Shown one piece after another: positions 1 to 64,000 of a DNA stretch of 64,000 nt; within the stretch, counting starts at the first letter, position 1; every line of letters starts with the position of its first letter. The notes below the pieces were generated by a model, which was given only the letters and a program-made list of their open reading frames with translations, did no database searches and had not been told where the DNA came from. The stretch is from Heterotrichella gracilis. Taxonomy: Eukaryota; Sar; Xanthophyceae; Tribonematales; Xanthonemataceae. The stretch covers positions 1 through 64,000 of the forward strand of contig JAULBX010025264.1 of the NCBI GenBank assembly GCA_032358255.1. Direction: 5' to 3'. Made by a program: the position numbers and the translations under genes.

Positions 1-2771
1 CCCCCACCCCCCACTGCAGCCCCTGTGCCCCCGCTGCCCTCCCACCCCTTGCTGGCCACGATACCCCCCACTATGTCATTGGTGCGATCATACAAAGAGG
101 CTGCAACCTCCTCATTGCCAGCCAGCCCGTTGACAGGGGTGCGGGGGAATGTGTTGCACACGTTGAAGGTGTAGGGGATGAGGTTGAGGACCCTGCCGTA
201 CACGGGGCCAATGTACTGCCCCCCGTGGCCTGCAACAAAATACACTGGGAAATTTAATGCCAACTTCTATGATCTAATATAATCAACTAGGTAAAAAGAT
301 CAACACATTTATACGCTGTCTGTCCATGACCAGTCGCATTGAAATTTCTAGCTGCATACATGCTGGGAACTACCAGCACAACTTCCCTATCTATAGTCTG
401 ACAACACTACAGAATAAAAAACAAATGATAAACACCCACATGCACCAGTCTCGGTGACAGCATACATGGTGGGCAGCACCCCGCAAACCTCGCCCTGAAT
501 AGTAAACCAGCGAGCACCTCCATTTGCCAAGGGCATAGAGAGTCTTGGGTTTTGCCCATGCCCTTGGCAGTCAGAGTGGTCTTGTTGATCTTGCATATTA
601 AGGCGCTCATGATGAAACCCAGGTGGCTGGCAGGGTTGAGGGTCTAGTGTTAAGGGTCTAGGTTTTATTAGGGTTTACCAACACGCTTTAGTGAGGCTGG
701 GCTCAGTGGCAGCGAACATGGTGGACAGCGCCCCACGTTCCTCCCCCTGGAATGCAAAGCAATTGAGCACCTCCGTGCCCTTGGCAGCCAGAGAAGTTTT
801 AACCAATCAGGGCGCTCTTCATGAAGGCTCGGTTGGCTGGCAGGGTTGAGGGTCTAGGGTTTGTTCAGGGTCTACCCACACGCACCAGTCAGTCTGGGCT
901 CTGTGGCAGCATACATGGTAGACAGCGCCCCGCGCTCCTCCCCCTGGAATGCAAACCAGTTGAGCACCTCCATGCCCTTGGCAGCAAGACTGGTCCTGTC
1001 GATCTTGCCCATGAGGGCGCTCTTGGTGAAGCCCGGGTGGGAGGCAAAGACGTCCACTCCGCTGCCCTCCAGCCTGCGCTGCAGCTCGGAGACGTACAGC
1101 AGGGTCCAGAGCTTGGAGGAGCCGTAGGTGTACAGCTGGCCACCAAAGGTGGACTTATCCTGGCCCCTGGGGATGCAAAATCAAGGTCAGTTAATTAATG
1201 CATTATTACAGTATAAAATCTTTTTTGAGGGGGGATAGGGCAGGGCTGAAGCTACAATTTTACGTGGAAGTGTAGAGATCGCCACAAAGGGTGGCTCATC
1301 ATGAGCCCTAGAGGTGCAAGCGGAATCGAATTACAAGCAATGACCCCAAAACAATGTATTTTGTCCTTTTCTTGATATATTTTATCGCGCATGATTCTTG
1401 TCTCCACCCACCTCCCCATCTCCCCACCTCTCACCCCCACCCTCCTACCTCAGATCCTCCCAGGGCACCCGCCCATACTGCTCACTCAGTGAAGACACCA
1501 CCACAACCCGTGACCCGCGGTGTTCTTTGAGCAGCGGCAGCAGCATGCGGGTGAGGTACCAGGGGCCAAAGTAGTTGGTCATGAGGGTAAGCTGCAGGGA
1601 TTGCAAGGGGGGTGTCAGACATTGGAGGGGACTTTATGGTTAGTGGGTTGATAGAGTGTTGGTGGTTGACTATCAGGGTGTGTTGCAGCGGCTAGTAGGA
1701 TTGTAGGCCATGCACGTTTAGGGTCACACAATCTGCGGTAGAGTAGCAGAGCCCATAGGAGGAGGAGGAATATGCAGACAGTATCATGTATAGCCTTTCC
1801 AGTCACACTACATATATTCAAAGTTAAGAATCTAAACGTGGGCAGGTACTCATATGCCATTTGCTTGCTTGCTAGCAGGATGCAGCGCAGCCGGTAAAGA
1901 TATTCAAACGTACTTGCTACAAAATACTAACAATTGGCGGCACACCACTGCCCAATAACGTGAATATCACAAGGCGCGCACCTCGATGCCATCCTCTGTC
2001 AGCTTGTAGGGTTGCAGGAACACCCCCGCGTTGTTGACCAGGATGTGCAGCGGCAGCCCCCTTGCCTTCAAGCCATCCGCAAAGTCCTTGATGGATTTGA
2101 AGGAAGCCATGTCCAGGAGCATGAACTCCAGCTTCCCCGGGATGACTCCCTGGGGGATGTTGCGATCCCCGTTGTTGTTCTCATCCCCGGTGGATGCGGG
2201 CGTGGATTGGGGTGGGTGCTGGGATTTGTTGGCTTCCAGCTCTGATAGAATGCGCTCGATGGCCCTGGAAAGCATCCACATCCGCATGCAGGGCATTAGA
2301 TGGGATGCATGCACCAATAATGACCATACGCCCAGCATTCTAGTTCTTCCCATTTTCAGCCCGTATAAACCACGTATATCACTCACCCTCTTGACCCAAG
2401 GCTTAAGGCAAGAAAACAACTACAGGTCATGGAACAGATAAAAAATACAAGGGTATCCCGCGGCATATATGCAGCCGCATAATGGCAGCATCGGACAACA
2501 GAGCATGCGCGGCTGGACACAATACCCTGAATGCATCCCATGCAGGGCATGGCACCAGGCATACTCCTGTGCCAGCCTGTCAGGTGACCTACTTCTTGGC
2601 TCTGTCAGGATTTCTGGTGGCCATGATGACGTGCGCCCCCTTGGAAACCAGGGCCTTGGTGGTCTGGTAACCGATGCCAGAGTTGCCGCCAGTCACAATG
2701 GCAACTCTGCCTGTTTGGTCAGGCATCCCATTGCGCTCGTTCCAGAACAGACGCCCAAGGACTCCAGCCAT
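1..2771 (-). CDS. Short-chain dehydrogenase/reductase (retinol-dehydrogenase/WWOX-like), 3' end cut by window edge
   Basis: NAD(P)-dependent oxidoreductase of the classical SDR fold; the substrate cannot be told from sequence. Exons read on the minus strand: 2771-2593, 2264-1982, 1591-1449, 1166-886 and 229-1, all GT-AG and phase-consistent. Visible motifs: the cofactor loop TGGNSGIG near residue 30, the NNAG structural motif in exon 2, a catalytic Ser in VVVVSSLSEQYG (exon 3) and the YxxxK pair as YGSSK at the start of exon 4. The last readable exon carries a Gly/Ala-rich C-terminal region that runs off the window. An upstream in-frame ATG near 2828 would add about 19 residues, so the start is uncertain. 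Exon 2 holds a long polar insert (about residues 70-100) before the strand leading to NNAG. Intron 4 (885-230) contains two decayed copies of the 3' part of exon 4. Family assignment is secure; enzyme specificity is not. Confidence 0.88.
432..856 (-). repeat. Two decayed copies of SDR exon-4 3' end plus adjoining intron
   Basis: Segments 671-856 and about 432-650 resemble 868-1040, which covers the 3' part of the functional exon 4 and the start of its intron. Shared words include the Pro/Trp-Phe-rich exon segment, and the copies share the tail ggctggcagggttgagggt. Both copies carry indels or changes that break the frame or the donor site. Confidence 0.8.
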
Positions 2772-3840
2772 ACTGTTCGCAATTTCAAGCCTGTTGCAGT
2801 ACAACTGGGCTTCAATGCTATGCCACATGGACCACGTCACTGGCAGGCACTGAGCTGACTATTGCAGTGCACTGTGAGGTGTTTATCCACTGCTGCAGAC
2901 AGGGACCTAAGGTTTGCTGGAACAGCTCTGCTACACCACAATCACTGAAGCAGAGCATTCCATGAAATAATGCCCAGATTGGATTTCCATATCCGCTGTT
3001 CAGATTGTGGCTCATAGTCAGAGGATCTCTACCATTGCACTCCTGATGCCACTGACCTGAAACACAGGCTTCCAGGGGTGGCTTCCACCCAGTTCCAAGG
3101 GTTGCTTCAAGAAGTAAATTGGGCCACAGTGCCAGAGGCTTTCACTTGAACCAGGCTACTGAATCTAGGGACTCCATTGAACCTCGTAATTGCCAGAATT
3201 TGATCTAGCTCTACCAAGCAACCTTGGACTGCTTCAAGCCTTCCCTTCCGAACGGTTGGGGAGGCTCTGTGCACTGCAAGTTAGTTTGTACAAATACGGT
3301 CTTAAGGTATTGGCAAGGACACCACGACTGTCAAGCCTGAAGTTCACCCTCGCAGTTGCCAATCAAGCTGTTGAAGCAATAAAACACACTATGTAGGTCT
3401 AGGCATAGATGTATAGGACTTTGTTGAGAGGTGTCCCTCTTACGACACGTCGTTTGTGGCAGAGAAGCTGCTGAAATGTGCTGCGGTTTGGCATATCCAG
3501 TATTGCAGGGCTAACCCTTTGGGGTTTTGGTCCTGACTGCAACGACTATTACCCTTCAGGGTGTGACCAGGCTGCCCCACTCTGGAACAATTGCAGTCTT
3601 TGCCTTGTATCGTTTTAAACTCTGAGAGATTGAGGTGAATTGCATCGTGTAGATGTTTTGTGCAATGAACCAATGTAATAATAGAAAGAATGAGAGCAGA
3701 GTGACCTGTCTGACAGTAATACCAAAGCCTGGTGTGCAAACCTGGCTACAGCAATTGCACACCTGGCTCAGCACCTGGCTACAGCAATTGATTAATCTGG
3801 AGGCCTACTCTGACACGCGTGCACCCCCGTTGCCCGCCCC

Positions 3841-4330
3841 CTTCCTGTTTCATTAAAATGCCTGTCTTCCTGGGGAAATGGTGAATTAAATAAGGTGAGG
3901 AGGGGACCCTAGGCGCATACGTTCCCCTGTCACGCTTGAAGTGCTTATCAAGGATGGAAAGCGACAACAATTGCATTTGTGCGCACAATACTCCCTCGAC
4001 AATTGCCCCCACCTCCCTGTTTCATTATTTATCTGTCTTTCTGTGTGACATCTCCTGGGGAGAGATTAAATCGAAGTGGGTGAGGAAGGGAACCCTAGGG
4101 TTAGGCAGTCCATCCTAAGCACATACTTTCCCCTGTCTTATAGAAGTGCTTACAATGGACGCAAAGTGACAACGATTGCATAAGCGTTTGTGCGCAAGTT
4201 ACTCCCCTCGCCCCTGGCCCCCACCCCCTCCTGTTTCATTAATTTACTTGTCTTCCTGTGTGATATCTCCTGGGGAGAGAATAAATTAAACAAGGTGAGG
4301 AGGGGGATTGTAGGGAGCGGGCAGCTAGCT
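3841..4330. repeat. Three degenerate tandem repeat units (about 170-215 bp)
   Basis: Units begin with cctgtttcatt near 3844, 4015 and 4230. Each continues through a tctcctgggg (or close variant), an ataaatt/gattaaat segment, a ggtgaggaggg segment, and (first two units) a cccctgtc...gaagtgctta...gcgacaac...tgtgcgcaa stretch. No coding potential is seen. The wider stretch 2772-5092 has no other recognisable gene; short direct repeats of cacctggctacagcaattg lie at about 3740-3790. Confidence 0.75.
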
Positions 4331-10219: not shown

Positions 10220-10222
10220 AGG

Positions 10223-11240: not shown

Positions 11241-11302
11241 TGGGCCACCCACCCACCTGCAGCTGGGGGTGGCCCACGCCTCGTCAGTGACAACAAAATC
11301 TG
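11241..11302 (-). repeat. Partial copy of GIY-YIG exon-2 3' end
   Basis: The sequence cccacccacctgcag...gcctcgtcagtgacaac resembles 11437-11500 (ccacccacctgcag...gcctcctcagtgacaac), including the donor-side CTGCAG|GTGGGTGG. It sits downstream of the exon on the minus strand. Confidence 0.6.
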
Positions 11303-11443
11303 CTATGCATTGCTCCAAATGCTAGATTTATGCCATCAGAGTGGGCCCCGTTGGGCACTCCACCTCGTGCAACACCTCATGCTGATATAGTCTCTAGTAC
11401 AATGAGCCTCCACCCATTGCTCAGGGTTCTCACAGCCACCCAC

Positions 11444-12111
11444 CTGCAGACGTGGGTGCCCCACCAGTGCGTTGAGCCACGCCTCCTCAGTGACAACCCC
11501 CACACAGCCATCATGTTCTTCAGCACCACCTCAAGCTCTGCGCTGAAGCACTCCCGGGAGTTGGGGGCGCTGGTGGGCCGCGACTGGTACCCCGCGCCCT
11601 TCAAGATTGCCAAGGTGATCCTTTCAGATTGCCACGCAAAGTTGCACCGCAGGGCCAGCACCGGGATGCACTTGTGCTTGCGCTGCGGCTCTTTCCACCT
11701 GAGGGTTTAGGGTTTAGGGTAATTACCCTAAAGCCATGTAAGGCAAAGTGCGAGGATGGTGGTGCGAGGTCTTAGAGGTCTGTGATGAGGGGACGGTACA
11801 GTACATTTATTTAAACACAATGGGTGTCACCGTGAAGTGCTTCTATTTCCAATTCAACCTAACGCATAACAACTTTCTGTACCCTAAACCCTAACTCCTA
11901 AACCACTTCCCCTTGCACTAGTGTCACACCTGCGTTCCACGTCATCCCTCCCACTGTACCCCACTTTGTAGTGCAGTCCATTTTCACCAATAATCTGCAC
12001 CACATACAACCAGACCCATCCGGACCGGCTGTTGGGGGTCGAGCTCCCGCTCCAAGAAACTAGTTGGCGCTTGCAATACTTTTCTAGCGCCTTTGGAACC
12101 CGCAATGCCAT
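11444..12111 (-). CDS. GIY-YIG family (T5orf172/MUG113-like) domain protein, incomplete
   Basis: Two exons, 12111-11930 and 11698-11444, join in phase. Exon 1 has WLYVVQIIGENGLHYKVGYS followed by DDVERR; after the splice comes WKEPQRKHKCIPVLALRC, then an AWQSERITLAIL helix and a Ser-Arg-Glu-Cys-Phe segment. This order (Tyr-Val strand, Tyr-Lys-Val-Gly-Tyr, ValGluArgArg, then a Glu helix) fits the T5orf172/MUG113 branch of GIY-YIG nuclease-like domains, best known from bacteria, phages and fungi. The function is unknown: DNA cleavage is the family expectation, not shown here. Near 11525, a G-run separates the exon frame from another frame reading VVTEEAW, which recurs as VVTDEAW in a downstream partial copy (11241-11302), so the exon's 3' part may carry a 1-nt indel. 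Start and end of the gene are not resolved. Confidence 0.6.
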
Positions 12112-12139
12112 GAAAACATGCGGCACTGTGGACAATAGG

Positions 12140-13350: not shown

Positions 13351-13353
13351 AGC

Positions 13354-16903: not shown

Positions 16904-19900
16904 CTATGTTTTCTGCCGCTTGGCGTCTGCTGTTCGATCCTTGGGGATGATGCTCACCTGCAGTGAGACGGGAAAAGCAAATGTTAACGTCAAGCAATTG
17001 GGAATAAATATGTATGTACAACCTGATCAGGCACACAGGCACAGCGCAGAGGTAGGAGAGAAGTAAAGAAGGGAAAGGGCAACGCATCTTCAGGTAGCAT
17101 TATAGGCCTTGTGAAAAAGGGTGTAATCATCTCTGCCTACAATTCTTCTTCGACTCACATGCCGACAAAATATCTTGCTATGTACTGCACTACGGCATGT
17201 GCATCCACCTGTGCGCCCATCACATAATCCTCCCACTCCCAAACCAGACCCTAGTGCAGCAGTGTTCAACGATTCATGGGATGCTCCAAGGTTTCAGCTG
17301 CACATTGCTTTGTACCACATCAATTTGATGGAGCAAATCATGAATACATTTACAGCAAGTCGCCATGTCAGCATTTGCAGTGGATGCATGCAGAGCACTA
17401 TCACACCTTGTACGTGCGAGTGCTTGCCCCAAAGCGCACCACGCTGCCCTTGTTCAGCTGCTTCATGGTGTTGGGCCGGATCCACACACCGTCCACATTG
17501 GTGCCGTGACCTGGAGAGTGGCAGGAAATCATGGAAATTAGATGCGACGTGTAGGGGAGAAACTCTCATTTCTTGGAGAATAATATGAGAGTTTTGAAAG
17601 TCCAATCCCATTCAGAAAAAGGGTTGAAATTCTTAAGAAATACGTAGCCACTTGCTGATGACACATCATTTCCCGTCATATATGTTCTGTGATGAACAGG
17701 TGGCATCATCACACACCGAACGCACATCATCACACCTGATCCAAGATCGGTGACAAACAAGTGGCCAGAGGCATCTGTTGTCAGTTGGGCATGCTGGCGG
17801 GAAATGGACAGATGCTCCAACATCACATCGCAGCTGGGCATCCGCCCAAAGATGCACTGCTGGTTGGGGGTATCCAACCCAATTTGAAGCTGGCCCGTTA
17901 CCTCCCCATCCTTGCTGATTTCCAGCACCACCCCTGGATCTTCCAATCCCAGCGAGGCTGCGCCCCCATCCCTGGGCCGCTTGTTCTCCCCCCTGTGGGT
18001 GACCAAGGGGGAAGTTGATGCAGGGAGGGGATGGATGGGCCAGGGCAGGAGTGGTAGTCACATGCTCCGCCTCAATTGACTAGGTACTACCAAATTGGAC
18101 GGGTTCCTCTACCGCCCCTGTTATTCTCTTCTCATACGCAACTCTCATGTGAGAGGAGGGTGCTACTCAGGTGGTGTGGCAACGGTGAATCACAACACCT
18201 GAGAGGTTTCCCCTCCACGCACCCTTGTGCATCTCCCCCCTTGGCAGCCTCAGCCAGCTGCCTGGCCGACACGTGGCGCACCTCCACCTTGGGGACCAGT
18301 GGGGCGTCCGCGGGGGATTGAGAGGGGGCGTCGGCTCCCCGGCCGCCCACTGAGGCGTTGACGTTACTCCTGCGGGGGTCGGGACGGGGATAAGTGCTGT
18401 GCAGGTGGGGTTCAAGTGGTGCAGGTCATTTGAATGTGTGCAGATACCTCCCATACTGCCGTATGCTATTGGCTGCCACCCGCACAGATTTGCCCGCATT
18501 CAGATTTGCATATGTGCGTGGCTGATGGAACCCCAGGACTCGGCCACGCGGCAGGGTCCCAGCCAATGGCAATAACCAGTTACTCGTCCAACACTCAATC
18601 TCCTCCTCAACCCCACGCCACTCCACGCCATCCATCGCATGCAAACCCCAGCCGCCGCACCAACATGCGATCCCCCATCCCTGCCCCCACCAGTCCACAA
18701 TTCCAGCTGCCCCTCTGGCGCTTATGCTCACAACGCCCTTGCCTGAAGGCATCAACATAAGAAAACAAAAGGAACAATACGCATTGCTCCATCCCCACAG
18801 TGAATCCCCAACCCCAATCCCCACCTGTCCACGATCCCCAGCTGCCCCTCAAACGCGCACAGCTGCCGCCAGAACCCGTTGTTGGGCGCCACAATGCTTC
18901 GCCTGGCCCTGCAGAAGTCCAGCGCCTTGGCTGCACTCAGCCTCTGGCTGCGCATGAGGTATGCGCAGGCCAGGGTGGCGGATCGGGAGATGCCCGCCCC
19001 GCAGTGGACCAGCACGGCTGCGGGAGGGGTGGGGGGTGGGTGGGTGATGGTGGTGGTGGTGGTAGTGGTGGTAGTGGGGTGTTAAGTGGGTGCTTTGGGT
19101 AGGCGCTGGCAAAGGGTGGTGGGTCGGGAGGTGCCCGCCCCGCAGTGAACCAGCACGGCTGCGGGAGGAGTGGGTGGGTGGGAGGTGGGGGTTGGGTGGC
19201 GATGGTGGTGGTGACAGGTTGCAATATGTGTGGTTTCTGTAGGCGCAAGGGTGGCGGAGCAGGAGGTGCCAGCACAGCAGTGAACCGCCACGGCAGCGGG
19301 AGTGGCGGGGAGTGAGGTGCAAGGGGATGCGGTGCCACAAGGGCTCGGTGAGGTGTGCCAGGAGAGAGTGGTAATAGAGGGTGGTGTAGTGGATAAGTGA
19401 CCATGTGAACATTTGAAATGGATGTCCTCTACTCAATTACTCTCAAACACCATTTCCCCCTCCTTTCCTTCCCTTCCCCCAGCCCTCCAGCCCACGCACC
19501 CACGCCCTCCTTTTTGGCCTGGTCTATGAAGTCGCAGGCTGGCAGCAGGTGCGGCGCGATATCCTCAGTGTCCACGTCAGCAAGCACTATCTCAAGGCGC
19601 TTGATGCGCGAGGGCAGGCGCAGGTTCTCGGGGTTGTTGTGGATGGTGATCACCCTGGAGGGTGTGGGGTTGAGGGATTAGGGTTTTGGTGACGAGTGGT
19701 GCTGAGTGGGGTGCTGACATAGGGTATGGGGTTTAGGGATGGGGGGCAAAGGATGCTGGGTGCGGTTATTGTGGGCGCCGGCGGCGCCGATGGTCGTGGT
19801 GGGGTTCCTATGTGCGAGGCCTGGCCCAGGTTCTCGGTTTAGGGTATGGGCTTAGGTTTTATGTGTGAGGCCAGGCGCAGGTTCTCGGGGATGTTGTGGA

Positions 19901-45793: not shown

Positions 45794-48700
45794 ATGGGGA
45801 CTCAGATTGCATTCCGAGTGCCCCAGGTCGCTGCAAATGACGACGGATGGGGCCCCAGCGCACTGCCAGACCACTTGACCGAAGTCCCATTCGCACCCTA
45901 CTCAAAATCTGAGAAGATTGGCAAGGTTTCCGACTTCACACCCCAGGGAGCCAACTACAACAAGTATGCAAGTGAGTGGGCCCATCAAACCAGGCTTTGG
46001 AGTTTTGTTTTGCAACCAAAACAAGGTTGTGTGGGTTGGAAGGATGGTGCCTGACATGCCCTCGCTTGCTTGCAGATCGCTACCCTCCTGGGCAAAATGT
46101 GAGTACGGTCTTCAACTTCCTCCATAATGAAGAGGTACGCTGATGCATGCAAGCCCCTTTTGAAACTCATCTGAGTTCAAAGGGACCTCGTAGGGGCTTT
46201 GCCAAGCACGGATGCACAGCCCTTTGTTAATAACAGCTGCTGTTACACGTTGGTATGCTCTATGCTCTGGCTATGACTTTGCACTGATGGCCCACCACTA
46301 CATGTTGCTCCCACTGATAGCTTGATAGCTGAGCATACTATCACATCACCTACCCCCGCAACCTGCAAACATTGTCACATCAACACTCGCATTCAGAGCT
46401 GGGTCGAATAATCAAGGAACTGTTAATACCCAGGTTGTGGGGGGGAAGGGTGCAGAGCAGTTCACCCACCCCCGTGTTGAGAGCTCATCCGATTTTCTCC
46501 CCTCCTAAGGAGGACTCCCTCCACCTTGTGGACAACCCACCACATACCGCACCTGCCACACTCGTCCAACCATCCCATCCACCGTGCATCCACATTAGTC
46601 CGTGCCTAAAATGGGCCATCTCCAAACCCCACTACTGGGAACCTGCCCTGCCAGTTTGGCCCACCCACCCTCACCCCGTTTCCTCCCCTCATCAGGAGGA
46701 CTCTTTCCACCTTGTGGACAACAAGCCTGCGCCACGTCAACGCCAGCAGCGCCGCTTCCAGCCCCAGAACAGGTTTCAGAACCAGCGCGGCAGGGGGGAG
46801 ATGCCCAAGGAGGTGGAGGGCGCGACCAAGCAGCGCCAAAAGCAGAAGCAGCAGCGGCCGCAGTTCCAGAGATACGAGTTCCAACGGGTGCGTGCAGGCA
46901 GCTTGCGGGGCAGGTCATACCAGCGCGTGTAGCAGGGGCAGTGCCATAGCAGCGCAAGACAGGGCACGTAACAGGACAGGACACATAGCAGTGCACGAGC
47001 TTTGTAGAAATAATGATTATCAGAGGATTTTTACAGCAGCCCCAGACCAGGGCAGGTCGCAGGCACAACCACGGGGACACAACCACGGGACAGGGGCACA
47101 ACCACGGGGCAGTAAGATACAGGGTGCATAACAGTGCGGTGCCCTAAGCAATGCAATGCAGTGCAAGCATTGCAGGCGGCGATGATTATGCAGGGCGCGC
47201 AGCGGTACAGGACACATGGCAGGGCATGCGGTGGCGTGCAGGGCTAGGCGATGCACCCACGTGCCGCGGCAATGCAGGGCATACAGCAGTGCACCTTGAA
47301 GTACACACCACAGTACCTTTCTGTAGTGTGTATTGTGCGGGGCTGGCCCCCCTCCCGTTACCGTAGCTGTCCTCATGGCAAGGAGCATAAACCCTTAACC
47401 CTAATTTCCCCTGCCTGCAGCAAACCCAGTACACCTCCTCCGTGGACATCAAGGCGGACTGGCGGGTGGTGGAGCAGGTGCTCATGTCATCGCTGCAGAA
47501 GCTGCACCTCACGGTCGGGGAACCAGAGGTAAGGGTGGGAATTCGGTCAGGGATGTGTAGGATGGTGTGGGGGTAGAGCAGGTGCTCATGTCATCACTGC
47601 AGAAGCTGCACCTCACGGTTGGGGATGCAGAGGTGTGTGGTGTGTGTGGTGTGGTGTGTGGTGGTGTGTGGGGGTGGGTGTGGTGTGGGTGGTGTGGGTG
47701 TGGGGGATGATAGGTGGTCTGCTGTGGCCATGGTGGCACTTGGCGTGATCATGAGGTCGATTATAGCAGGGTGTTTGCTGCTGGATACACTGTGTGGGGG
47801 GGAGATGGGTGATATGCTGTGGGTGTGGTATGGGGGGTTGTTCATGCAGTCGCTCAGAAGTTGCACCCAACAGTTGGGGATCCAGAAGGCTGGTGGGGGC
47901 TGAGGGTGGAGGATGAGGGGGTATAGAGGGATAATTTTGTGTGGGGGGGGGAGGGAAGCTGCACGTCACCATCGGTGCCCCTGAGGTGGTGGCTAGTGGG
48001 TGCTGATGGCATCTCACATGGAATGCAGTACGGAGCTGGCGCGCACAATAAAAAGAATATTAACAGAATAAAAGTGCATAATTAAGGATACTCGTTAAAT
48101 TTATATCTACCCCATTATTCTTGCCATAGGATGTTTCCTTCTGCGGCGCTCTTGAGTTCTACGACAAGAGCCTTGACAAGATGATGAAGGAGCGCAAGCT
48201 GGGCAAGACGCAGCTGGCATTCAGGAGCGTAACCACGTCGGACGACCCAGTCATCAGGTAAACCTTAAACCCTAAACTCTCCTTCCAAGGTGCCGGTCAG
48301 GAAATTGTTGTAATACAGTTTGCTTTCTCCCCAAAAGAGTTAATACTCAGGGAAGCGTTGCATGCGCCTTGCCAGCGCGGATTTCAACGTGCACAACTTC
48401 CTGATCGCGCGCATCTTCCTGACCGACAACACATTGTGTCCCTTTGATTCTAAAACCCTAAATCCTAATATCCCCCTTGCAGGCGCCTTGCCAGCACGGA
48501 CGGCGGCGCGCGCATCTTCCTGACCGACACCATCGCCACCACGCTCATGTGCGCGCCCCGATCGGTGTACTCGTGGGACATTGTCATCACGCGCGCTGGG
48601 GACAAGGTGGGTGTGGCGGCTGGGGAAGGGTGTGGTTTGGGTGCCTTGTGGATAAGTGAGGCATATGCGGGATATTGGAAGGGTATTCATTGAAATAGTG

Positions 48701-51266
48701 AACCATGAAAGGATAGAATTGAACAGGGCCAAAATGGAATTTAGCAGTATCTCTGTATGCGCGAGGAACATTCCGCAAGAGCCCAATGAATGGGGATACA
48801 TATTCAATAATAAAAATTGAATTCAAATTGTAAGTTGCAAAGCAGGATCTTCAGGCTGAGTTGTGGATCAAGGGCCGATTGTATTGAACCCGCCCCACAC
48901 TACCCCACCCGCAGGTGTTCTTCGACAAGCGCGACCACTCCTCCCTGGACTTCCTCACCGTGGCCGAGACCGCCTCCGAGTCGCTGCCCGAGGACAAGGA
49001 CAACATCAACGGGGTGCAGCAGCTGTCCATTGAGGCCACCGCGGTGAACCAGAACTTCTCCCAGCAGGCGCTGCTGAAGGAGGGCGACAAGCTTCCCTGC
49101 GGGGAGCCAAACCCCTTTGCGGCGGAGGGCGGCGAGGAGATTGCCAGCGTGGCTTACAGGTGGGGAATGGGGGTGTGGGGTGGAGGTGTTGTGGTGGTGG
49201 GTGGGCAGGGTTAGGGGGTGGTGGGAGAAGGAGGGGTGTGGTGGATGTCGTGTTGCAATAATTTCACCAGCAGGCGCTGCTCAAGGGGGGCGCTCTGAGG
49301 AGGTTGCCAGGGTGGCGTACGGATGGATGATGCGTCCGGGGGGGAGAGTGGAGGTACAGGTTTAGGGGGGTGATGGTCCTGCGTTGTTAAGTCTGTTGAG
49401 GTTGCAGAGTTGGCGATTGGTTGCTGAAGTGACGCACCATGCAATGTGCTGCTGTGCTGGGGATTCTACTTGATCTGGAGACAGTGACCCACCAGGCCAA
49501 CTGGGCAAGCTGCAACCCTTGCACAGCAGCATGATGCATGTGCATGACAGCAGCATGATGCATGTGCATGACGCCCCCCCCTCCTTACCCCTCCTCCAGG
49601 TACCGCAAGTGGACCATTGGCGAGGACATGGACGCAGTTGTGCGGTGCGAGGTGGATGGCGTGACTGTGAGCGCGCAGGGGCAGCAGCAGTACCTCACCA
49701 TCAAGGCGCTCAACGAGTTCGACCCCAAGCAAGCATGTGAGTGGGGTACCCGGTGGGAGGGGGGGGATTGGAGATGTGAAGGGTCGGGGTGTTGACGTGG
49801 ACATCTTTTTGCATTAGGAGTTGGTGGTGATGGGCACATATGGGTTGGTGGAGCACCATCAGCGACATGGAAAAGCTGCAGTGGAAAAGCAGCTTTTCTT
49901 GATTAGCCAAATCTCATCCCATATTGACCCCCCCGCCCACCCATGAACACCGCCTAGACTGGCGCCAGGGCCTTATAAGCTGTGCTGGCCACTGGGTGGT
50001 ATAAACCTGTTTTATGAAAGCACAGCCACAGCCACACCACACCATACTACACCACACCCATACTACACCATACCACATACACCCTGTGCCAGGGCCCAGT
50101 GGAACCTGGTCATTATGAAACCAACTTAGGATCTAATTCAATCCTCCCCACACACCATACGCCAAAACAACCCATGGCCTGCGTCTGAACCCCTCACCCC
50201 ACCGCCCCGCAGTCGACTGGCGCCAGCGCCTGAGCAAGCAGCGCGCCGCCGTGCTTGCCACCGAGCTTAAGAACAACGCCAACAAGATCGCAAAGTGGAC
50301 CTGCCAGGCGCTGCTTGCGGGCAGTGACGTAGTGAAGATGGGCTACGTGTCGCGCGTGCACCCAAAGGACAACACAAACCACGTCATCCTGGGCACGCAG
50401 GTGCGGGATAGGTCTATGTCAAGGTTTTGGAGGTTGAGGTTGAGGGTTTGGTTGGGCAATAGTGTCACCCGCCATGTGTGATGGCATGCGGGTCACGGGG
50501 TACGATCAGGAGTAGCAGCCCAGCAGTGAGCTGGCACATCTGACACTGATCATTATGACCTCTGTGTGCGAAGATTCTGGTCATTGGTGTCCCCTGCAGC
50601 GCATGGTTGTGGCCACAGTGCACTGCAGTGCACCCGTTAGACGGCGCTCACCATCTACAGTGCACCAGTGCACCAGTGTCACACTGCACCCGCCAGACAA
50701 CGCCTACCCAGTAACTCCCCTCTCCCCCCACTCACCCCGCCCCACCCCACCCTCCTTGCAGCAATACAAGCCCAAGGAGTTTGCCGGGCAGATGAACCTG
50801 AACATGGACAACTGCTGGGGCATTGTGCGCGCCATTGTTGACCTGGTGCTGTCCCAGGAGAGTGAGGCGGCCAAGTACCTGCTGGTGAAGGACCCCAACA
50901 AGCCAATCATGAGGCTGTACGAGGTGAGTGCAGGGAGGGGCGCGGTAGGCGTGAGGGTAGTTTTGGTTCTGTATGATGTTGCTGCTGCTGCTGCTGGTAT
51001 CCACCACGAGGCCGTTTGCTGCTGCTGCTGCTGCTGCTGCTGGTAATACTCACCCGCCAGTTGCCAAACACGCAAGGGAGTCACGACCCACCCAGCACGC
51101 CCCACCCTCTGCCTCAAAACCCTTGGCCAGGACCCTAACCACTGCCCCACTTGTGCAGGTGCCCGAGGACGCGTTTGAGACCAACTACGTGGATGAGCCC
51201 ATTGTGGAGGGGGGTGAGGATGAGGTGGTGGTGCGGGAGGGGATGGGCGAGGAGGGGGACGAGTAG
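45794..51266 (+). CDS. EIF3D: Eukaryotic translation initiation factor 3 subunit D
   Basis: Cap-binding subunit of the eIF3 complex that helps recruit the 40S ribosome in the cytosol. Eleven exons chain in phase to 530 residues: 45794-45971, 46076-46098, 46696-46887, 47421-47528, 48130-48257, 48483-48606, 48915-49159, 49600-49736, 50213-50400, 50762-50923, 51159-51266. Hallmarks in order: [20 protein letters not shown]; a basic RNA-binding stretch rich in Arg/Gln (exon 3); [69 protein letters not shown]-type [79 protein letters not shown]; an acidic tail. Slightly shorter than the plant protein (about 580-590). Introns 2, 4, 5 and 7 carry copies of neighbouring exon ends. Confidence 0.97.
46494..46540 (+). 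repeat. Copy of eIF3d exon-3 5' end
   Basis: The sequence ttctcccctcctaag|GAGGACTCCCTCCACCTTGTGGACAAC (broken here by the splice mark) repeats 46676-46724, acceptor included. It reads [11 protein letters not shown] against the functional [11 protein letters not shown]. Confidence 0.88.
46920..47300. repeat. Low-complexity gca/cagggcac-rich repeat in eIF3d intron 3
   Basis: Recurring words include caggacacat, cagggcat/cagggcac, gcagtgc and cacaaccacggg (three times at 47073-47110). No coding signal is seen. Confidence 0.55.
47576..47990 (+). repeat. Three copies of eIF3d exon-4 3' end
   Basis: 47576-47632 is almost intact ([19 protein letters not shown] then GTGTGT). 47846-47889 and 47955-47990 are progressively decayed. 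The functional segment is 47470-47535. A GT-rich microsatellite separates copies 1 and 2. Confidence 0.88.
48361..48431 (+). repeat. Copy of eIF3d exon-6 5' part
   Basis: The words gcgccttgccagc and gcgcgcatcttcctgaccgac match 48483-48530; the copy has an insertion between them. It lies upstream of the functional exon. Confidence 0.85.
49255..49325 (+). repeat. Copy of eIF3d exon-7 3' end
   Basis: Segments caccagcaggcgctgct-aag and gaggaggttgccagggtggc match 49060-49160, with internal loss. It lies in intron 7. Confidence 0.75.
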
Positions 51267-51984: not shown

Positions 51985-51988
51985 ACAC

Positions 51989-52004
51989 TTTTTCTGGCTT
52001 TTTT
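51989..52004 (+). terminator. RNA polymerase III terminator
   Basis: A T5 run at 51989-51993 and a T6 run at 51999-52004 follow the tRNA 3' end by 5 and 15 nt, the usual place for Pol III termination. Confidence 0.8.
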
Positions 52005-53328: not shown

Positions 53329-56300
53329 ATGGAGGACAAGAGGGCAAAGTCGCCCTACCAATGGCTAGACGAGCTGCAGCGCCTCAAGGTAACCACCGAG
53401 GGGCATTGGGGATCACGCTAGCTCGCTGTAAGCACTGGGGAACACTAAGGCTAGGGAGGACCGGATTGGACTGAGGTTTATCTGTAGGATTTCCAGATCA
53501 ACCACCAAAAGTGCCCAGTGCGTCTCTCGCCTGTGGTTTTCATACTGCACTTGTTCGAATGCCTGCGTAATGGTCCCCTGATTGTGGTGTTCAGACAGTA
53601 CGGTATGCTGTCACCCACCAGGCAGTTTGTGGTGGCTGTGCATACATTGTACTGTCACTGGTGGACCCTAAGCTTCTGCCACAGCATTTAGCTAATAGGA
53701 CCTCTATCCCTGTGTGTCCAGCTCGAGGCGCTGAAGGGCTCCAAAGGCAAGGTTACCATTCAGGACATTGTGGAGCGCGGACAAGGTACAGCAAGCACAA
53801 CAGCATCCCGTGCACATTCCACCTCTGTCACAACACTGCCATGCTTGCCGCTATTTGAAACTTACTGCCCAGTTAGCATGCCAATCATTTTATAGCAACT
53901 CTGCTGTACCTATCCTTCCCCCATCAACCAAGACAGCATGAATGGAATTCCCTTGTGTGAAAACGTGCCTCAATCACGCTCAGTCCACTTTTGCACCTCC
54001 CCCTCCAACCCCCATTTCCATTCCTCCAGGTGGCTTTGCCCAGCCCACCAGCCCCCGCTCCGTGGAGGCCTGCCTGCGCCTGGGTGTGGACCCCCACGAG
54101 CTGCTGTACGTGCCACCGCAGCACTTCCACAAGCAGGCTGAGGACCCAGTCATGTCGCAGATGATGTACGAGCGATGCGAGCGACTGAGACAGGTGCGTC
54201 AAACCACAGCTGGGTCACATTATAGCTTGTACATTATACACAGCTTGTCCATGTAGACCATGCAAACATAAAGTGTATACTTGAATGGGCAGCTGGGCCT
54301 AGGTATCTTGGTCAAGTGACACATGATAGCTTGTACATTTTAGCTTGTACATGTAGGTCATGCCAACATTGCATGTTTACGTGTGTGAGCGATGCGAGCG
54401 CATGTGGGAGGTGCGGCTGGGCCCAGCTGCCAGTGGGTCTTGTGGCACTGCCTGGCTTGTACCTGTAGATCATGCCAACATGCAATGTATGCACCCATGG
54501 GAGCGCTGCAAGAGAGGCGCGCCTCACCTAAACCCTAATCTCTGATTCCTGAACGCTATACCCCGCCACATAGAAGCGCTGCACTATCCTGCGAGCCAGG
54601 CGCAAGACAACCGCAGAGGGCAACAAACGCCTCACCTAAACCCTACAGTGACCCCTAAACCCTAACGCTACTTCCACAGGAGCGACTCACCTCGCTGCTA
54701 GCTGAGCGCAAGGCAATAGTAGAGGGCGAGGAGGGGGCACCCGGAGGCCGCCGCCCCCCGCCCCCACCCCTGGGCAAGGCCAAGTCTGGGTCCATTGTGG
54801 GGTCCGCTGAGCCTGGTTGGACCAGCGCCATGGTTGAGAAGGAGGCGCGCAGGCTGGAGGTGCTGCGCAGGTAGGGGAGGGGCTGGGCGAGGCGGTATAT
54901 TAAATGCCCTTCGAATGCTTATAAGCAAAAATGTAATGCCTTCCTCTTTTAAACCCTCCTTGCGCAACCCTGTGCGCCTGTTCAGCCTGCATTGTTTGGC
55001 TGCATTGTTGCTTACTGATTTATATATTTATTTCTTCCTGTTTAATGTAACAAAAAATAGAAGGCGCGCAGGCTGGAGGTGCTGCGCAGGTAGGGGGCAT
55101 GGTGGACAGGTCCTGGAGGGCAATGCCTTACCCTCAGGAAGAGAGAAAATTACTGACCCTTCTTGCCTAACCAGCGCGCCTGTCGAGTCATAGGCTGCGT
55201 TGTTACTTAAACATATGACGTATATCTTTCTTTATCCATTACCTTGTTTGTTGCGCAGGCGCCAGGAGCGCGAGCTTGCGCAGATGGTCAGCTTTGAGCT
55301 GGCGCGCAAGCAGCTGCAGGTGGGGGCGAATGGATTGCTTCTGCCAAATATGTTGCCAATTGCAATGCCTATGCCGGGCATGAAATCCCAATCAGTGCCA
55401 GTCTGGATGATCCATCAATGCATTCCAATGCTTCTTTTTGTATTGATTGGAAAGAGGAGTAGAATTTCAATCACTTTTACACATGTGACATAAGCATCAA
55501 ACACCAGTATGCATTTATGTACTAAAGCGTATAATTTGAACTCGTTTCTTGTGCCCTTAGGAGCGTGCTGAGGCCAAGGTGCGCGACATGGAGGCCAAGG
55601 CCGAGGCCCAGCGCCAGGCCAAGGCACGTCACGACAGGGAGTGGCGCGAGCACCAGAAGGAGCTGCAGCTCAGGGAGGAGAAGGTGGGGTAATAGGGTTT
55701 AGAATGAAGGGATTAGAGTTCAGGGTTGGCTGGAGATAAGGGAGGAGATGGTGAGTGGGGGTCGGCCGGTGGGGTTATAAAATTTATATCTTAGGGATCA
55801 GGGTTCAGGGTTGGCTGCGGCTGAGGGAGGATTAGGTGAGGCAGGCTGGTGGGGGTATTGGGTTTATAATTTTGTAAGAAATTTAGGGATTAGGGTTCAG
55901 GGGTTAGGGTTGGTTGGTGGGGGTGGGAGGCTAGCAGGAGGGGGGGATGCACAAGAAGGGGGAGGGCAGTGACACGCATGCATGCAAGCTGGAGTGGTGC
56001 GCATGTGCTTCGTGAACTGCCACTATAATCATAGTGCAAGGAGTGTATAGGTGTAAATCCCTTCGTTAAATTGGTCCCTCCTGACCTCGCCCCTTGACCT
56101 CCTCCCTTCCCTCCCCCTGCAGGAGGAAGAAGCCCGCCAGCGCGAGGTGAAGCGCCAGGAGGCTGAGCGATACCAGCTTGAGCAGGTTGCGGCCAAGGAG
56201 GAGGAGGCGGAGGAGGCAAGGAGGAGGCAGGCAGCATACCAGAGGTGGGTGGTGAGGGGAAGTCTGCTGCAGGGTGGGGGATGGCAGATTGGTTGCGCAT

Positions 56301-58958
56301 TAGTGCAACTGTCTGTGGGTTGGGTTGGCTTTCTGCACTGTGGTGGACGCGCGTACTGTGGTGGACGCGTCTCCACACCTACCTGCAGGCTAATGTAGCC
56401 TACTCCCCCACCCAGAAGGGCGCCGGAGCAGATGGCCCGGATGGTCATTTTGCCTATGGTATCATCACCATCCCCTCCTATCCACATCCTAAGACACACC
56501 TGATGCCCTGGCATCGTGACCAGCCTGCCTGCATGCGCACTGTAACCCTGGTTATCTCCCCACTGTCAAACACCCCCCTCTGCTCACTCCCACAGGGAGC
56601 AGGAGCAGATTGCCCGCATGGACGCTGCACAGACTGAAACCAAGAAATGCCCTATTGTTCCATGCTTTCACACACCCGTGTGCCACATACCCCATCTCCC
56701 ACCCTCCCGCGTTCTTTCAGTGCAGATACCTGCAAGGGGAGTAATACCCCCCCCTGCTCATCTCCCCACTGCCAAACACCCCCCTCTCCCCCCACCCACA
56801 GGGAGCAGGAGCAGATTGCCCGCATGGACGCAGCGCGCGCAGAGACCGAGAAGATCCTTGCTGCCCAGCAGGCTGAGGTGGACCGCAAGAAGGCTGACAT
56901 GGCACGCAGGGATGCGGAGAGGGAGGCGGTCAAGGTGCGGTGGGAAGGGGAGGGGAGGGGAGGGGGTTGCAATCCGTGTCTAAGAAGTGATGAAGATAGT
57001 GCACTGTCGCCTCACGGCCCGTCGGCCTTGCCCAGGGTAGCAGATGTTTTGGTGATGCGCACTTTGGTACAGTACTGGCGTTTAATTTCGAATTTGTATT
57101 CAACATCCCATATACAAATATTCCAGGGGTAATATTCCATCATCCAATTCAGATTCAATTCCACAGCCCAAATTCGATTTCCAATCGATTGTAAATTGGA
57201 TCCACCGCGTGCCCGCAGGCCAAGATGGCTGCTGAGCGCGCCGCCGCCAATGCCGAGGCCCGCCGCCGCGCCGAGGAGCGCATCGCCGCCGCCATCGACT
57301 CCAATCGCGCCATCATGGCGCAGAAGCGGGCAGACTACGACGCCAGGCAGAAGGCAATGGAGGCGCGCCGACAGGTAATTTTTTTTTTAGTATTTTGTTT
57401 TCCAAATCAAATGGCATTTCAGCTGCCTGTCCTTTGCCATCAAGTGGAGACACTCTAAGGGGCGCCCACTAGGCAGCCGCTGGCTCAGTGGCACGCTGCG
57501 TCTCTACATTCAACGCCATGTGTACATGAGGCTTAGGACCTGTCATATTCAATAAAATTGATCACGTCTTAACAAATAAATCACTTCTTTATTTTGTGCG
57601 CCAGGCTGGCGAGGCTGAGCGGCAGGCTGCTGAGGAGGAGGGCCGGGCGCGTGAGCGTGCCAAGGAGGAGCAGCGGCGGGGGGCGTACAGGGACGCGCAG
57701 GCAAAGCTGGCGGGGAGGATCGAGGGTGAGTGGCGGGAGGGGCGATGTGGTGGGGGCGTAGGTTTTTGCTTAACTACTAATTTGTATGGGGGGTCGTGGG
57801 GTAGGGGTTGAAGGTCTGGGTCCTGGAGGTGGTGGAGGATCCACATATGTTTAGGCATCCAACCTGTTGCAGCGCAACATTGTACCACCATGCACCAACT
57901 TTACAATCCCTCTCTCCCTTGAGGGTCTACATCCCGCCTTCTTTTCAAAGGATATTCCCCACTTCACGTCACTCCCCTGTTCCATCTCCCCAGGCATCCA
58001 GAACCGCGCCTCGACCAAGGACCACCGCCTTGAGTGCCTGCGCAGTGAGAACAGCCAGCACAGCCAGCACAGGAAGCTGGCCAGGCAGCTGCACCTGCAG
58101 GACAAGGTGGAAAAGGTGAGGGAGGGGGAGGGAAAGAGGAGGGGAGGTGAGGACAGGGGAGGGAGGAGGTAAAATTAAATTATTTTAAACCTGCTGCTGT
58201 GGATGCTTTTATAAATTGTGCAATGCATTATGGTCACACGGGTGGAGGGCATGTGAAAAAGTAAACAATGAAGTTTGCTGCCTGTTCAAGGGCAGCCGCA
58301 TTGGTTCAGGGCAATGATTGGCATATGCATGTGACCATGTGACCACGTGTGGTATGCAGGTTGAGGCCAACCGGCGCAAGGACACCTACCGCCGCGAGCG
58401 CCTGCTGAATAAGATTGAGGAGGACACCGAGAGGGCGCACGATGTAGTGCGCCAGAGGCAGATGCTGCAGGTGGGTGGGTGGGGGGATGGCACTGGTTCA
58501 ATTCAACAGATGGACATGAAACAGCGCCATGTGGTGTAGGTGGGGACGAGTAGTGGGGCTGTGATTGTATGGCACCTAGTGCTACTAGGTGCTACGGGTG
58601 GGTTATCCACTCAGGCCCGCCCACATCCCCATTTTGGCCCCGTCCATTCACATGATGGCGACATTCATGCAACATCCACCTTGCCAAGTGATGTCATGTC
58701 ATGCATCAAATGATACCATGCAATCTTAATTAACCCATGTGATGTCATGTCAACGGTGCATCTTCACCATACCCCCCTTGCTCCCCTCAGGATGCCCGCA
58801 AGGCCGCCAACATGGCCGCCTCCTTCCAGCGGCAGCGCCTGGTGGAAGCCATTGAGCGGCTGCAAACCACAAAGAACTGGGCGGCGGTGGCGGGGCCAGA
58901 CGGGCAGATCAACATTGGGTCGCTCATGGCTCGGGTCACGGGGACGGGCGGGAAATGA
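53329..58958 (+). CDS. CCDC177-like coiled-coil protein, probably ciliary
   Basis: Thirteen exons chain in phase to 531 residues: 53329-53388, 53722-53785, 54030-54193, 54680-54870, 55259-55319, 55561-55683, 56123-56244, 56802-56934, 57219-57374, 57605-57725, 57994-58115, 58360-58470, 58791-58958. The N-terminal block SPRSVEACLRLGVDPHELLY then an MYERCERLRQERLTSLLAER helix matches the start of the animal CCDC177 family. A Pro-rich linker (about residues 120-135) follows, and then a nearly continuous highly charged Glu/Arg/Lys/Ala helix from about residue 150 to 500, a long single or coiled-coil alpha helix. The C-terminus is globular-looking (NWAAVAGPDGQINIGSLMAR). No membrane or signal segment is seen. 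A ciliary role is inferred from family resemblance and composition. Several introns contain decayed copies of exon ends. Confidence 0.85.
54383..54625 (+). repeat. Copies of exon-3 3' end and exon-4 5' end in one intron
   Basis: 54386-54430 (gagcgatgcgagcgcatgtg then ggaggtgcggctgggcc) repeats the exon-3 end and donor at 54170-54212. 54571-54625 (gcgctgcactatcctgc, gcgcaagacaaccgcagagg) is a decayed copy of the exon-4 start at 54680-54735. Confidence 0.65.
55062..55092 (+). repeat. Copy of exon-4 3' end with donor
   Basis: The words gaaggcgcgcaggctggagg and tgctgcgcaggtaggggg are nearly identical to 54840-54876, including GCAG|GTAGGGG. A usable alternative donor exists, but no matching acceptor was identified. 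Confidence 0.9.
55727..55842 (+). repeat. Two decayed copies of exon-6 3' end
   Basis: ggctggagataagggaggag (55727-55752) and gctgcggctgagggaggatt (55812-55842) resemble the exon ending gctgcagctcagggaggaga (55660-55690). Both lie downstream, in intron 6. Confidence 0.6.
56412..56655 (+). repeat. Two copies of exon-8 5' end
   Basis: 56593-56650 keeps the cccacag acceptor and REQEQIARMDAAQTETKK against the functional REQEQIARMDAARAETEK. 56412-56450 is older (GAGADGPDG...). The functional exon starts at 56802. Confidence 0.88.
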
Positions 58959-61794: not shown

Positions 61795-63678
61795 TCACAA
61801 GCTCCTCATGATCCCCGGCGCCAGGTTGATTGTGTCCCTGATCACCAGCAACAAGCCAGTGCCCAGCAGCAGCAGCAGACCAGAGGCCATCACCACTTGC
61901 TCAACCTGGGGGTGGGGGGTGGGGGGTTACTGGTGGGTGCTGGGGTTGGGGGTGGATGCAGGGCGCAGGTTGGGGTCAGAAAGTGGGGATGGGAAGATGC
62001 ACAATGCAATTTGTCTTCCCCAGCAATCTTGACGCAAACGCCGACATTTGCAAACACCGGCAACATCGATTTTGAAACATTGACAACAGCCACAAGTTGG
62101 AAAGCGTATGGAACTACACCCACTTCTTTGGTGGTAGGGATTCTAGAACCACTCCCACTTCTCAACTTGTCCACTCTGCCTGCACACTGGACACCATGCC
62201 ACCGACCACACCATGGTTCAAAATGTCGTATCCATGATTCCACCCAAAATCCACCACTCTCACCTCCTTTGGCAGCTTCTTTCCCCCCCTCAGCGCCTCC
62301 ACAATCAGCAGCAGCATGTACCCCCCATCAAGAGCAGGCAGGGGGAGCGCGCTAACCACAACCAGACAGACATTTACGCTGCTCAATAAGTGGACACCAT
62401 GCGACCAACTACACCAGGGTTCCCTCCCCTCTCACCTCCTTGGGCAGCTTCTTTCCCCCCCTCAGCGCCTCGACAATCAGCAGCAGCATGTACCCGCCAT
62501 CCAGGGCGGGCAGGGGGAGCGCGTTAACCACCGCAAGGTTGATGTTCACAATGGCGGCAAACTGGAACAGCCCGGTGACGTCTGCACGTGCCACCTCAGC
62601 ACCCACCGCCACGATGGCGATGGGCCCCGACACCTGCTCGGCGGTTTGGCTGAAGTTGGTGACAATCTGCTTGAGGCCTGTGGGATGGTAGAATGGGGGT
62701 GACCACAGGGTTGGAATGGCAACCCTATTACAATTCTACTGCTAGTTACGTTATATCACGGCGTTGCTGCATGCCTGCACAGTGCGGATTGGGGAGAAGA
62801 GCGCAGGGTGTAAACTTCCTATTACGCGCCAACACATCGCGATGGGCCCCAACACCTGCTCGGCGGTTTGGCTGAAGTTGGTGACAATCTGCTTGTGGCC
62901 TGTGGGATGGTAGAATGGGGGTGAGCACAGGGTTGGAATGGCAACCCTATTACAATTCTACTGCTAGTTACGTTATATCACGGCGTTGCTGCATGCCTGC
63001 ACAGTGCGGATTGGGGAGAAGAGCGCAGGGTGTAAACTTCCTATTACACGCCAACACATCGCGATGGGCCCCAACACCTGCTCAGCGGTTTGGCTAAAGT
63101 TGGTGACAATCTGCTTCAGGCCTGTGGGGAGTGGAAGGGGGTTGCGCCAAGGCCTATTGTGGCAATGCTATCATACTTCATTACATATCCTAATTTAATT
63201 TTTTGTTTAAGTTATATCATGGGAATGCTGCACGCCTGTGGAATGGGTGGCCGGGGAGGAGGGGGCGTCTTTCTGTTATGCATCAACATATGGCAAGGAT
63301 AATGAGATAATAATAGGTTCACTACTATCGTATTACCCTTGCACAAGGCAACGGGGAAATAACACCTGCTCAGCGGTTTGGCTGAAATTTGTGACCTGTT
63401 GCCGAAGTGTTGATGCAACACAATATAGCAAAGGGCTATGGGGCATGACATTGCCACAGAGGCCTGGCTAAAGCTGAGGACACTGACATGTGAAAAGTAT
63501 CACATGAAAATATATATGATGTACATGTAACAAGATAATGATCCATAGCAGTTACCAACCGGGCATCTCTTGTTTTTGGGAAGTACTGTTACATAGGGTT
63601 TAGGGTCAGGGCTTAGTGTTTGAGGCATACCTCCCAAGACGTCAAACCACATGAGCATTGCGTACTGCCCCTTGCCAC
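61795..63678 (-). CDS. ARASP-type site-2 (M50) metalloprotease, C-terminal part
   Basis: Intramembrane zinc protease resembling plant ARASP, a plastid inner-envelope site-2 protease. Phase-consistent exons are 63678-63631, 62677-62436 and 61905-61795. They encode QYAMLMWFDVLGG, GLKQIVTNFSQTAEQVSGPI, AIVAVGAEVARADVTGLFQF, the zinc-ligand motif region NINLAVVNALPLPALDGGYM, EALRGGKKLPKE, and a last membrane helix ending MRSL. The HExxH and PDZ parts lie upstream, beyond what I could assign; the gene may continue past the right edge. The LDGG Asp that completes the zinc site is present. The exon at 62677 is flanked by extra partial copies on both sides, so alternative splicing is possible. 63855-63945 looks like a decayed upstream copy of the 63678 exon. 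Confidence 0.85.
62252..62350 (-). repeat. Well-preserved copy of ARASP exon 3' end
   Basis: Reads LPLPALDGGYMLLLIVEALR then GGKKLPKE and GTGAGAG, in the same frame and with the same donor as the functional 62436-62540. Third-position changes predominate. It lies downstream in the intron. Confidence 0.9.
62677..63130 (-). repeat. 222-bp tandem repeat carrying the ARASP exon 5' end
   Basis: The boundary word cctgtgggatgg or cctgtgggg occurs at 62677, 62899 and 63121 (222 bp apart each time). Units are almost identical through the intron part and repeat the first about 55 nt of the exon (QIVTNFSQTAEQV). Older partial copies lie at 63362-63400 and perhaps 63450-63480. Confidence 0.92.
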
Positions 63679-64000
63679 CTGAAGCACCTCCACCGGCCCC
63701 TGGGGCATGACCCCCCAACGCTGGGTGCAGCGTACGGTGCGTAGAGTCAGACGTAAGGGCCTATCCCCAGGGCTTAAGGTTTAGGGTAAACGCCAAATGG
63801 AAAGGGTGTAGGGTGAGTGCAAAGTGTGTAGGGTGCGTGCACCTCCGACCACCGATCCCATCAGTTGTGCGTACTGGCCCCCTGCACCATCCCCACCGAC
63901 CCTAGGGCAGCATCCCCCACTGCTAGGTGCAGTGTGTAGGGTCCAGTTTGGAATTCACGATCAGGGCTTGAGATTAAGGGTGAACGCCGCATGCAGTGCA

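Follow-up and report, generated by a model that had tools for sequence, protein, structure and literature searches.

Introns of the window (i.e. the whole 64,000-nucleotide stretch analysed here, C276:1-64000 of the 68.5-Mb draft assembly, 903 contigs, of Heterotrichella gracilis) contain decayed direct copies of the ends of adjacent exons, and the DNA between copies is in many cases a telomere-type repeat of CCCTAAA or TTTAGGG units. The copies had been described in a first-pass annotation of the window; the telomere-type filler between them is the new part of the observation. We consider it probable (roughly 0.6) that the copies are repair scars, left by fill-in and end joining at staggered breaks, often with telomeric DNA as filler, and that introns grow thereby. 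One class of break-repair duplications is proposed, of which about one member in four carries telomeric filler.

Direct copies of exon ends in neighbouring introns

The main sample of 254 kb comprised the window together with 19 other stretches of 10 kb, and five new 10-kb pieces brought the total to 304 kb. Gene models were obtained with a self-trained hidden Markov model (HMM) gene finder, which was trained on the 254 kb and seeded with eIF3d exons and long open reading frames. The splice signals learned were sharp (i.e. CAG/GTGAG and GCAG/G) and 340 exons of median length 155 bp were predicted, along with 304 introns of median length 326 bp. Exons were placed at all six Pfam eIF3d sites, the same eIF3d having helped to seed the HMM; the models were checked against this gene only (Pfam and homologues), without RNA, and some exons will be wrong. 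One stretch of 36% GC (L018, C145:20001-30000) was left out of gene-model training and later counts; it held zero duplication pairs and is perhaps organelle or contaminant DNA, and the length listed for its contig is identical to that of C135. The eIF3d of the window was nearest to those of trebouxiophyte green algae (Myrmecia, 62% identity; Coccomyxa, 59%), which suggests that the alga is trebouxiophyte-like. By score the eIF3d search was headed by a fish protein of only 44% identity, from Coregonus, probably due to a repeated domain in this internally repeated protein.

When the window was compared with itself, 41 direct pairs scored at least 40 bits; the copies lay within 500 bp of each other in 36 of these pairs and never more than 5 kb apart. 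Across 26 ten-kb pieces, 150 direct pairs at this score lay within 1 kb and no inverted pair lay within 2 kb, five inverted pairs being further apart; one dinucleotide shuffle per piece (26 pieces) produced neither direct nor inverted pairs. Within 600 bp, the 254 kb contained 182 direct repeats and 0 inverted, at offsets of 63-510 bp (median 189). The five new pieces, analysed with the HMM frozen, added 15 direct pairs and 0 inverted, so that the 304 kb held 197 local duplications in direct orientation and 0 in inverted orientation. Local direct copies of exon ends are therefore confirmed as real and extend beyond the window. Pair density was very uneven (0-30 per 10 kb, with a variance/mean ratio of 6.1 across 30 pieces), with a local hot spot of 30 pairs in the 10 kb of L011 (C75:20001-30000). 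Bases within a detectable copy amounted to 10.5% of intron, 9.7% of exon and 2.9% of intergenic sequence. An end was copied into noncoding DNA for 61/340 predicted exons overall and for 13/84 in the window. Nine of the window's genes contained 21 merged noncoding places copying exon sequence, and about four further copies (47569-47634, 55059-55096, 62251-62359 and 20368-20424) were taken for exons by the HMM, so that the earlier figure of 'more than 25' was about right, as was the warning that such copies would mislead gene finders.

The placement of the copies was directional. Acceptor-end copies lay upstream in 39 cases and downstream in 3, and donor-end copies upstream in 0 and downstream in 49, among the 182 pairs; these counts omit 13 whole-exon copies (4 upstream, 9 downstream) and 22 exon-interior copies. 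In the five new pieces the corresponding values were 5 and 0 for acceptor ends and 0 and 4 for donor ends. Additionally, 91/182 pairs crossed exon borders as compared to 53.5±5.6 under random placement. Both the direction of the copies (i.e. 5' ends upstream and 3' ends downstream) and their origin in local duplication across exon borders were thus as first annotated. The mirror place was noncoding for 18/49 donor-end and 21/42 acceptor-end copies. Spaced copy-and-paste into random neighbouring introns was rejected, as 0/49 donor-end copies were upstream despite the 18 noncoding mirror places.

The decay that had been reported for the copies came with codon-structured divergence. In 118 exon-versus-noncoding pairs, mismatches fell at codon positions 1, 2 and 3 in 231, 227 and 419 cases (of ~2150 each), and indels were frameshifting in 40 cases and in-frame in 8. 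These patterns show that the noncoding copy decays neutrally beside a constrained exon, which accepts mainly synonymous changes. The replication set of five pieces had 16, 8 and 15 mismatches of ~132 each, i.e. no third-position excess, with numbers too small to judge. Exon copies carried 0.73 indels per 100 bp and neighbouring intron copies 2.65, a gap that exceeds the neutral prediction; the low exon rate was reproduced by none of five simulations (1.28-2.63) and may be due to sequence context. Splice dinucleotides were retained in 44/51 donor copies (GT) and 34/44 acceptor copies, near the neutral expectation, and are neither purged nor protected. Most copies were 70-95% identical to their source.

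Telomere-type repeats in introns and between copies

Words of (CCCTAAA)n were 33 times commoner than those of 20 permuted heptamers at k=9 (753 versus a mean of 23 and a maximum of 47), and at k=14 the counts were 183 versus 0.05. Genome-wide, (CCCTAAA)3 occurred 834 times, with overlapping windows counted and chromosome ends included, as compared to 0 for the reversed pattern. Telomere words were concentrated in introns (44.9 per 10 kb, against 6.0 in intergenic and 0.9 in exon sequence), and a telomere-type tract was present in 92/376 introns. The 29 tracts of the window comprised 25 intronic, 4 intergenic and 0 exonic; some of the intronic ones lay away from any detected pair (e.g. 11702-11720, 23042-23057, 39412-39435 and 54635-54665).

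The gaps between copies were examined for 124 adjacent pairs, chosen from the 197 as having a gap of 15-400 bp without another copy inside, and were classed as telomere-type by a fixed rule. Gaps were telomere-type in 34/124 pairs (30/119 distinct gaps), whilst ten permuted units under the same rule gave 4, 1, 0, 1, 1, 0, 0, 0, 2 and 4; for gaps of 30-59 bp the share was 12/24. In 62 isolated pairs, telomere sequence occupied 39.3 bp per kb of the gaps as compared to 11.9 in the intron flanks, with an exact 9-base word in only 12/62 gaps. A strong telomere excess was found in 13/60 gaps and 2/55 flanks of isolated pairs, in 1/150 stretches of duplication-free introns and in 0/150 intergenic stretches. 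In 27 of the 34 telomere-type pairs, the telomere signal of the gap clearly exceeded that of each flank, which is not expected of a duplicated unit that had contained the tract. The cleanest gaps hold little beyond the repeat, such as L007 2447-2480 (CCCTAAACCCTAAACCCTAAACTCTAAATCCTAA, between two 86% copies), L035 3078-3118, L017 9094-9124 and 32671-32696 of the window. Conversely, flanks were duplicated for 54/145 intronic telomere tracts as compared to 59/600 random intron points (p=5e-14), and for 28/100 versus 31/528 after removal of the three densest pieces.

The copies of the window are as follows, with percentages giving identity to the source.
434-1046, minus strand: SDR gene; the region of exon 886-1166 (an HMM prediction) has several decayed copies next to the exon, at 434-523, 556-792/842 and 702-774
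11246-11277, plus strand: SAP-domain gene; beginning of exon 11425-11614 (11433-11464), copied upstream
18958-19319, minus strand: phosphatase/FHA-like gene (FHA by Pfam); array of copies of the end of exon 18825-19017
19601-19668, minus strand: source copy, 5' end of exon 19500-19654 with adjoining intron
19669-19857, no strand: gap between copies 19601-19668 and 19858-19924, with a TTTAGGG-type stretch adjoining the left copy
19858-19924, minus strand: upstream decayed copy of 19601-19668, 82%
20880-20919, minus strand: copy of exon segment 21072-21111, 90%
24312-25017, plus strand: HhH-like gene (by reading, without domain search); array of copies around exon 24640-24814
31675-32036, minus strand: acyl-CoA-oxidase-like gene; three or four copies and telomere-type filler (in 31806-31883: AAACCCTAAACCCTAGAACCCTAACCC)
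32628-32670, minus strand: source copy, 5' end of exon 32373-32665 including the splice site
32671-32696, no strand: telomere-type filler AGTAAGGGTTTAGGGTTCAGGTTTTA between copies 32628-32670 and 32697-32738
32697-32738, minus strand: upstream copy of 32628-32670, 88%
42163-42205, minus strand: histidine phosphatase gene; intronic copy of exon segment 41974-42016
42604-42692, minus strand: 3' end of exon 42865-43047 including the donor (42858-42946), copied here, 92%
46484-46536, plus strand: eIF3d; upstream copy of the acceptor end (46670-46722) of exon 46696-46887
47569-47634, plus strand: eIF3d; downstream copy of the donor end (47465-47530) of exon 47421-47528, 91%
48358-48431, plus strand: beginning of exon 48483-48606, copied upstream as two pieces
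49267-49292, plus strand: downstream copy of exon segment 49061-49086
55059-55096, plus strand: downstream copy of donor end 54840-54877; the intron part is collinear too, indicating a true tandem duplication
56405-56646, plus strand: coiled-coil gene; acceptor end of exon 56802-56934, copied twice upstream (56405-56444, 56546-56646)
62251-62359, minus strand: S2P-protease-like gene (by reading); downstream copy of the donor end (62423-62531) of exon 62409-62677
63671-63935, minus strand: two copies (63671-63733, 63874-63935); the gap 63734-63873 and a flank both carry TTTAGGG-type DNA

The best-preserved tandem array in the window, 62614-63128, consists of 2.3 copies of a 222-bp unit (~97%; 97-98%) and reaches into the S2P-like exon. 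A GIY-YIG label given to one of the genes was not upheld: a Pfam PF01541 search of the genome gave nine matches, none of them on this contig.

Proposed break repair and alternative explanations

Under the proposed mechanism, a staggered break, whether within an intron or at the border of an exon, would yield two ends sharing a stretch e of tens of bp to ~200. Overhang fill-in and joining would convert A-e-B into A-e-filler-e-B, lengthening the intron by filler plus e. About one recognisable case in four has telomere-type filler, most simply through telomerase addition to 3' ends, or it may have been captured; in the remainder the filler would be short, absent or no longer recognisable. Where the stretch e includes a splice site, the body of the exon would lie on one side only, such that donor-end copies come to lie downstream and acceptor-end copies upstream. 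The original splice site would stay in use and the copy would decay neutrally. Break repair is favoured because direct-only duplication with intervening filler is expected from fill-in and joining of a staggered break, and the 34/124 telomere-type gaps point to such repair rather than only to tandem duplication of an AGGT-bearing segment. A telomerase RNA-binding domain is encoded in the genome (two matches).

Several results weigh against break repair with telomeric filler. Most gaps (90/124) were not telomere-type, one 10-kb piece (L011) supplied 12/34 telomere-type pairs (10/30 places), and the telomere-type share was not higher in younger pairs (7/27, 17/55, 10/42). Intergenic tracts were few, and 0/14 had duplicated flanks at score 40. 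The orientation expected if telomerase extends the 3' end beside one copy, a prediction of this analysis and not of the literature, was seen in 15 of the 34 pairs and contradicted in 13, with 6 undecided. Additionally, 52/127 gaps of at least 40 bp shared local homology (score of at least 28) with a flank, as compared to 0 and 2 in shuffles; in 22 of the 52 this homology lay near the unit offset. As some gaps keep intron homology, some events were plain tandem duplications. A model of pure filler for all gaps is weakened by this residual homology, and in at least one case (62188-62422) the edges of the copies are less sharp than they look; homology beyond the copy edges was detected in only 23/135 gapped pairs by an edge test that is blind past indels of ~31 bp.

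The alternative that survives best, although unlikely on balance, is ordinary tandem duplication, by slippage or by 3'-overhang fill-in with end joining, followed by indel-rich intron decay, with the telomere tracts being separate and at most fragile sites that trigger duplication. True tandem units exist (i.e. 62614-63128), the duplication at 54840 keeps collinear intron homology (offset 203 versus 219), and a second piece (62188-62219 / 62391-62422) renders most of the 62251-62359 unit tandem, a 31-bp indel having masked the homology. The residual homology of the 52/127 gaps fits this explanation as well, and small tandem duplications are a documented product of fill-in by Pol alpha with CST (PMC8355091). 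At least 30 unaligned bases separated the copies in 146/197 pairs; simulated tandem duplication with indel-rich introns reached comparable shares, with gaps of at least 30 bp in 54-84% of detected pairs for seven of nine settings and in 92% and 100% for the other two. Among pairs at least 90% identical over at least 50 bp, however, 17/21 were gapped as compared to 6/53 and 12/27 in steady-state simulations, whilst simulations with long indels gave 20/32 gapped high-identity pairs. The telomere tracts also argue against tandem duplication, since in the 27/34 pairs described above the tract lies between the copies and has no counterpart beyond copy 2 or ahead of copy 1.

Mobile elements leave direct target-site duplications when they insert, and retroelement ends (of telomere-attached LINEs such as Zepp, or of Penelope-like elements) that inserted with long duplications of the target would account for direct copies around telomeric DNA. 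The short gaps, however, contain hardly anything besides telomere repeat, which occurs in both orientations. Furthermore, 72/127 gap sequences had no other match in the 254 kb; 23 matched another stretch, the hits shown were short (18-49 bp), many fell on one period-7 stretch (L013 4511-4560), and no mobile family common to the 127 gaps was found in this search. Zepp LINEs occur in the related Coccomyxa (PMC3446292). An origin of this kind is considered improbable.

Function of the copies as alternative or mutually exclusive exons is more improbable still; the first-pass annotation had expected such duplication to tend to generate alternative exons. Some copies keep splice sites and an open frame, and a few were accepted by the HMM, but the equal divergence of codon positions 1 and 2 and the preponderance of frameshifting indels fit neutral sequence, and the algal eIF3d homologues compared lack the copied segment 47569-47634. 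Misjoining of haplotypes or repeats in a draft of 903 contigs, named at the outset as a possible refutation, is scarcely credible given the 70-95% identities, the codon-structured divergence and the 0 inverted pairs.

The view of tandem duplication as a route of intron gain and growth stood for growth and not for gain, no instance of which was seen in the window. Donor-acceptor context likeness (score of at least 10) as expected from AGGT tandem duplication occurred in 0/286 introns (1.05 expected), and in 0/182 pairs was the donor of an intron aligned with that intron's own acceptor, as it would be in an intron made of one unit. The suggestion that the process is ongoing was not borne out: only 1/197 pairs was at least 95% identical over at least 60 bp, as compared to 28/263 and 12/108 (about 11%) in steady-state simulations, a scarcity that is no proof that duplication stopped, since the youngest units may have been merged into one in a draft assembly.

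Exon bias, known systems and intron growth

Duplication families touched an exon in 105/124 cases (a number of families that coincides by chance with that of adjacent pairs), as compared to 50-64% in steady-state simulations of uniform duplication and neutral decay. It is possible, and put forward tentatively, that telomerase acting at staggered breaks inside transcribed genes has been a main source of intron length in this lineage of algae, seeding TTTAGGG filler and duplicating exon ends, with breaks concentrated near exon edges. An exon-targeted process is not proven by the bias, as simulations without the events of the last 8-10% of divergence reached exon shares of 73-89% (the 89% from 27 detections). 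Young families comprised 18 exon and 5 non-exon cases, with Fisher p values of 0.004, 0.003, 0.08 and 1.0 against four settings. Intergenic pairs were depleted (5 versus 33.5 expected), an effect that was weak by family (13 intron-only and 3 intergenic of 112).

Two mammalian studies describe short telomeric repeats inserted at double-strand breaks, some sites having direct target duplications ascribed to staggered breaks, although simple duplication was rare (6/130 rodent, 4/25 primate and 3/66 horse loci); the intron share of these interstitial telomeric sequences was as random, i.e. 31% in human (PMC2246262, PMC7215372). The alga resembles them in having telomere repeats inside the chromosome flanked by direct duplications and differs in that most tracts are in introns, with 54/145 intronic tracts duplication-flanked. 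Mammals thus offer rare precedents, and the density and intron focus in the alga are unusual. In mouse cells, CST-guided Pol alpha fill-in with end joining generates small tandem duplications at 3' overhangs, with insertions of <100 bp; direct local duplication of overhang-sized segments is shared with the alga and the filling complex is the telomere C-strand complex, whereas telomeric filler is not mentioned in the part of that report available (PMC8355091). Intron gain of the AGGT type, including a potato gene with an intronic tandem duplication, likewise involves local duplication across exon borders, but none of the 286 algal introns looks made of a duplicated unit. Plant telo boxes are interstitial AAACCCTA motifs for which telomerase action on free 3' ends was proposed; they are enriched in 5'UTRs and reach 150.7 (Arabidopsis) and 72 (rice) per Mb of intron (PMC3022908). 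The algal densities of AAACCCTA differ, at 1191 per Mb in predicted introns, 319 in intergenic sequence including UTR and 77 in coding sequence. Rapid change of introns is also known from introners, a likeness to the alga, in which no shared mobile family was found among the 127 gaps (254 kb only). In a literature search with most subscription papers outside its coverage, none of the papers listed described telomere-filled exon-end duplications, judging by title and abstract start.

Decoy splice sites that decay at an approximately neutral pace are common in these introns, which is a warning for gene finders. Many events that bear on intron growth and on the source of intron sequence are present here in a small sample. 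The signature of exon piece, telomere filler and exon piece is readable, such that source, direction and age become measurable, and telomerase and end joining as writers of intron sequence becomes a testable idea.

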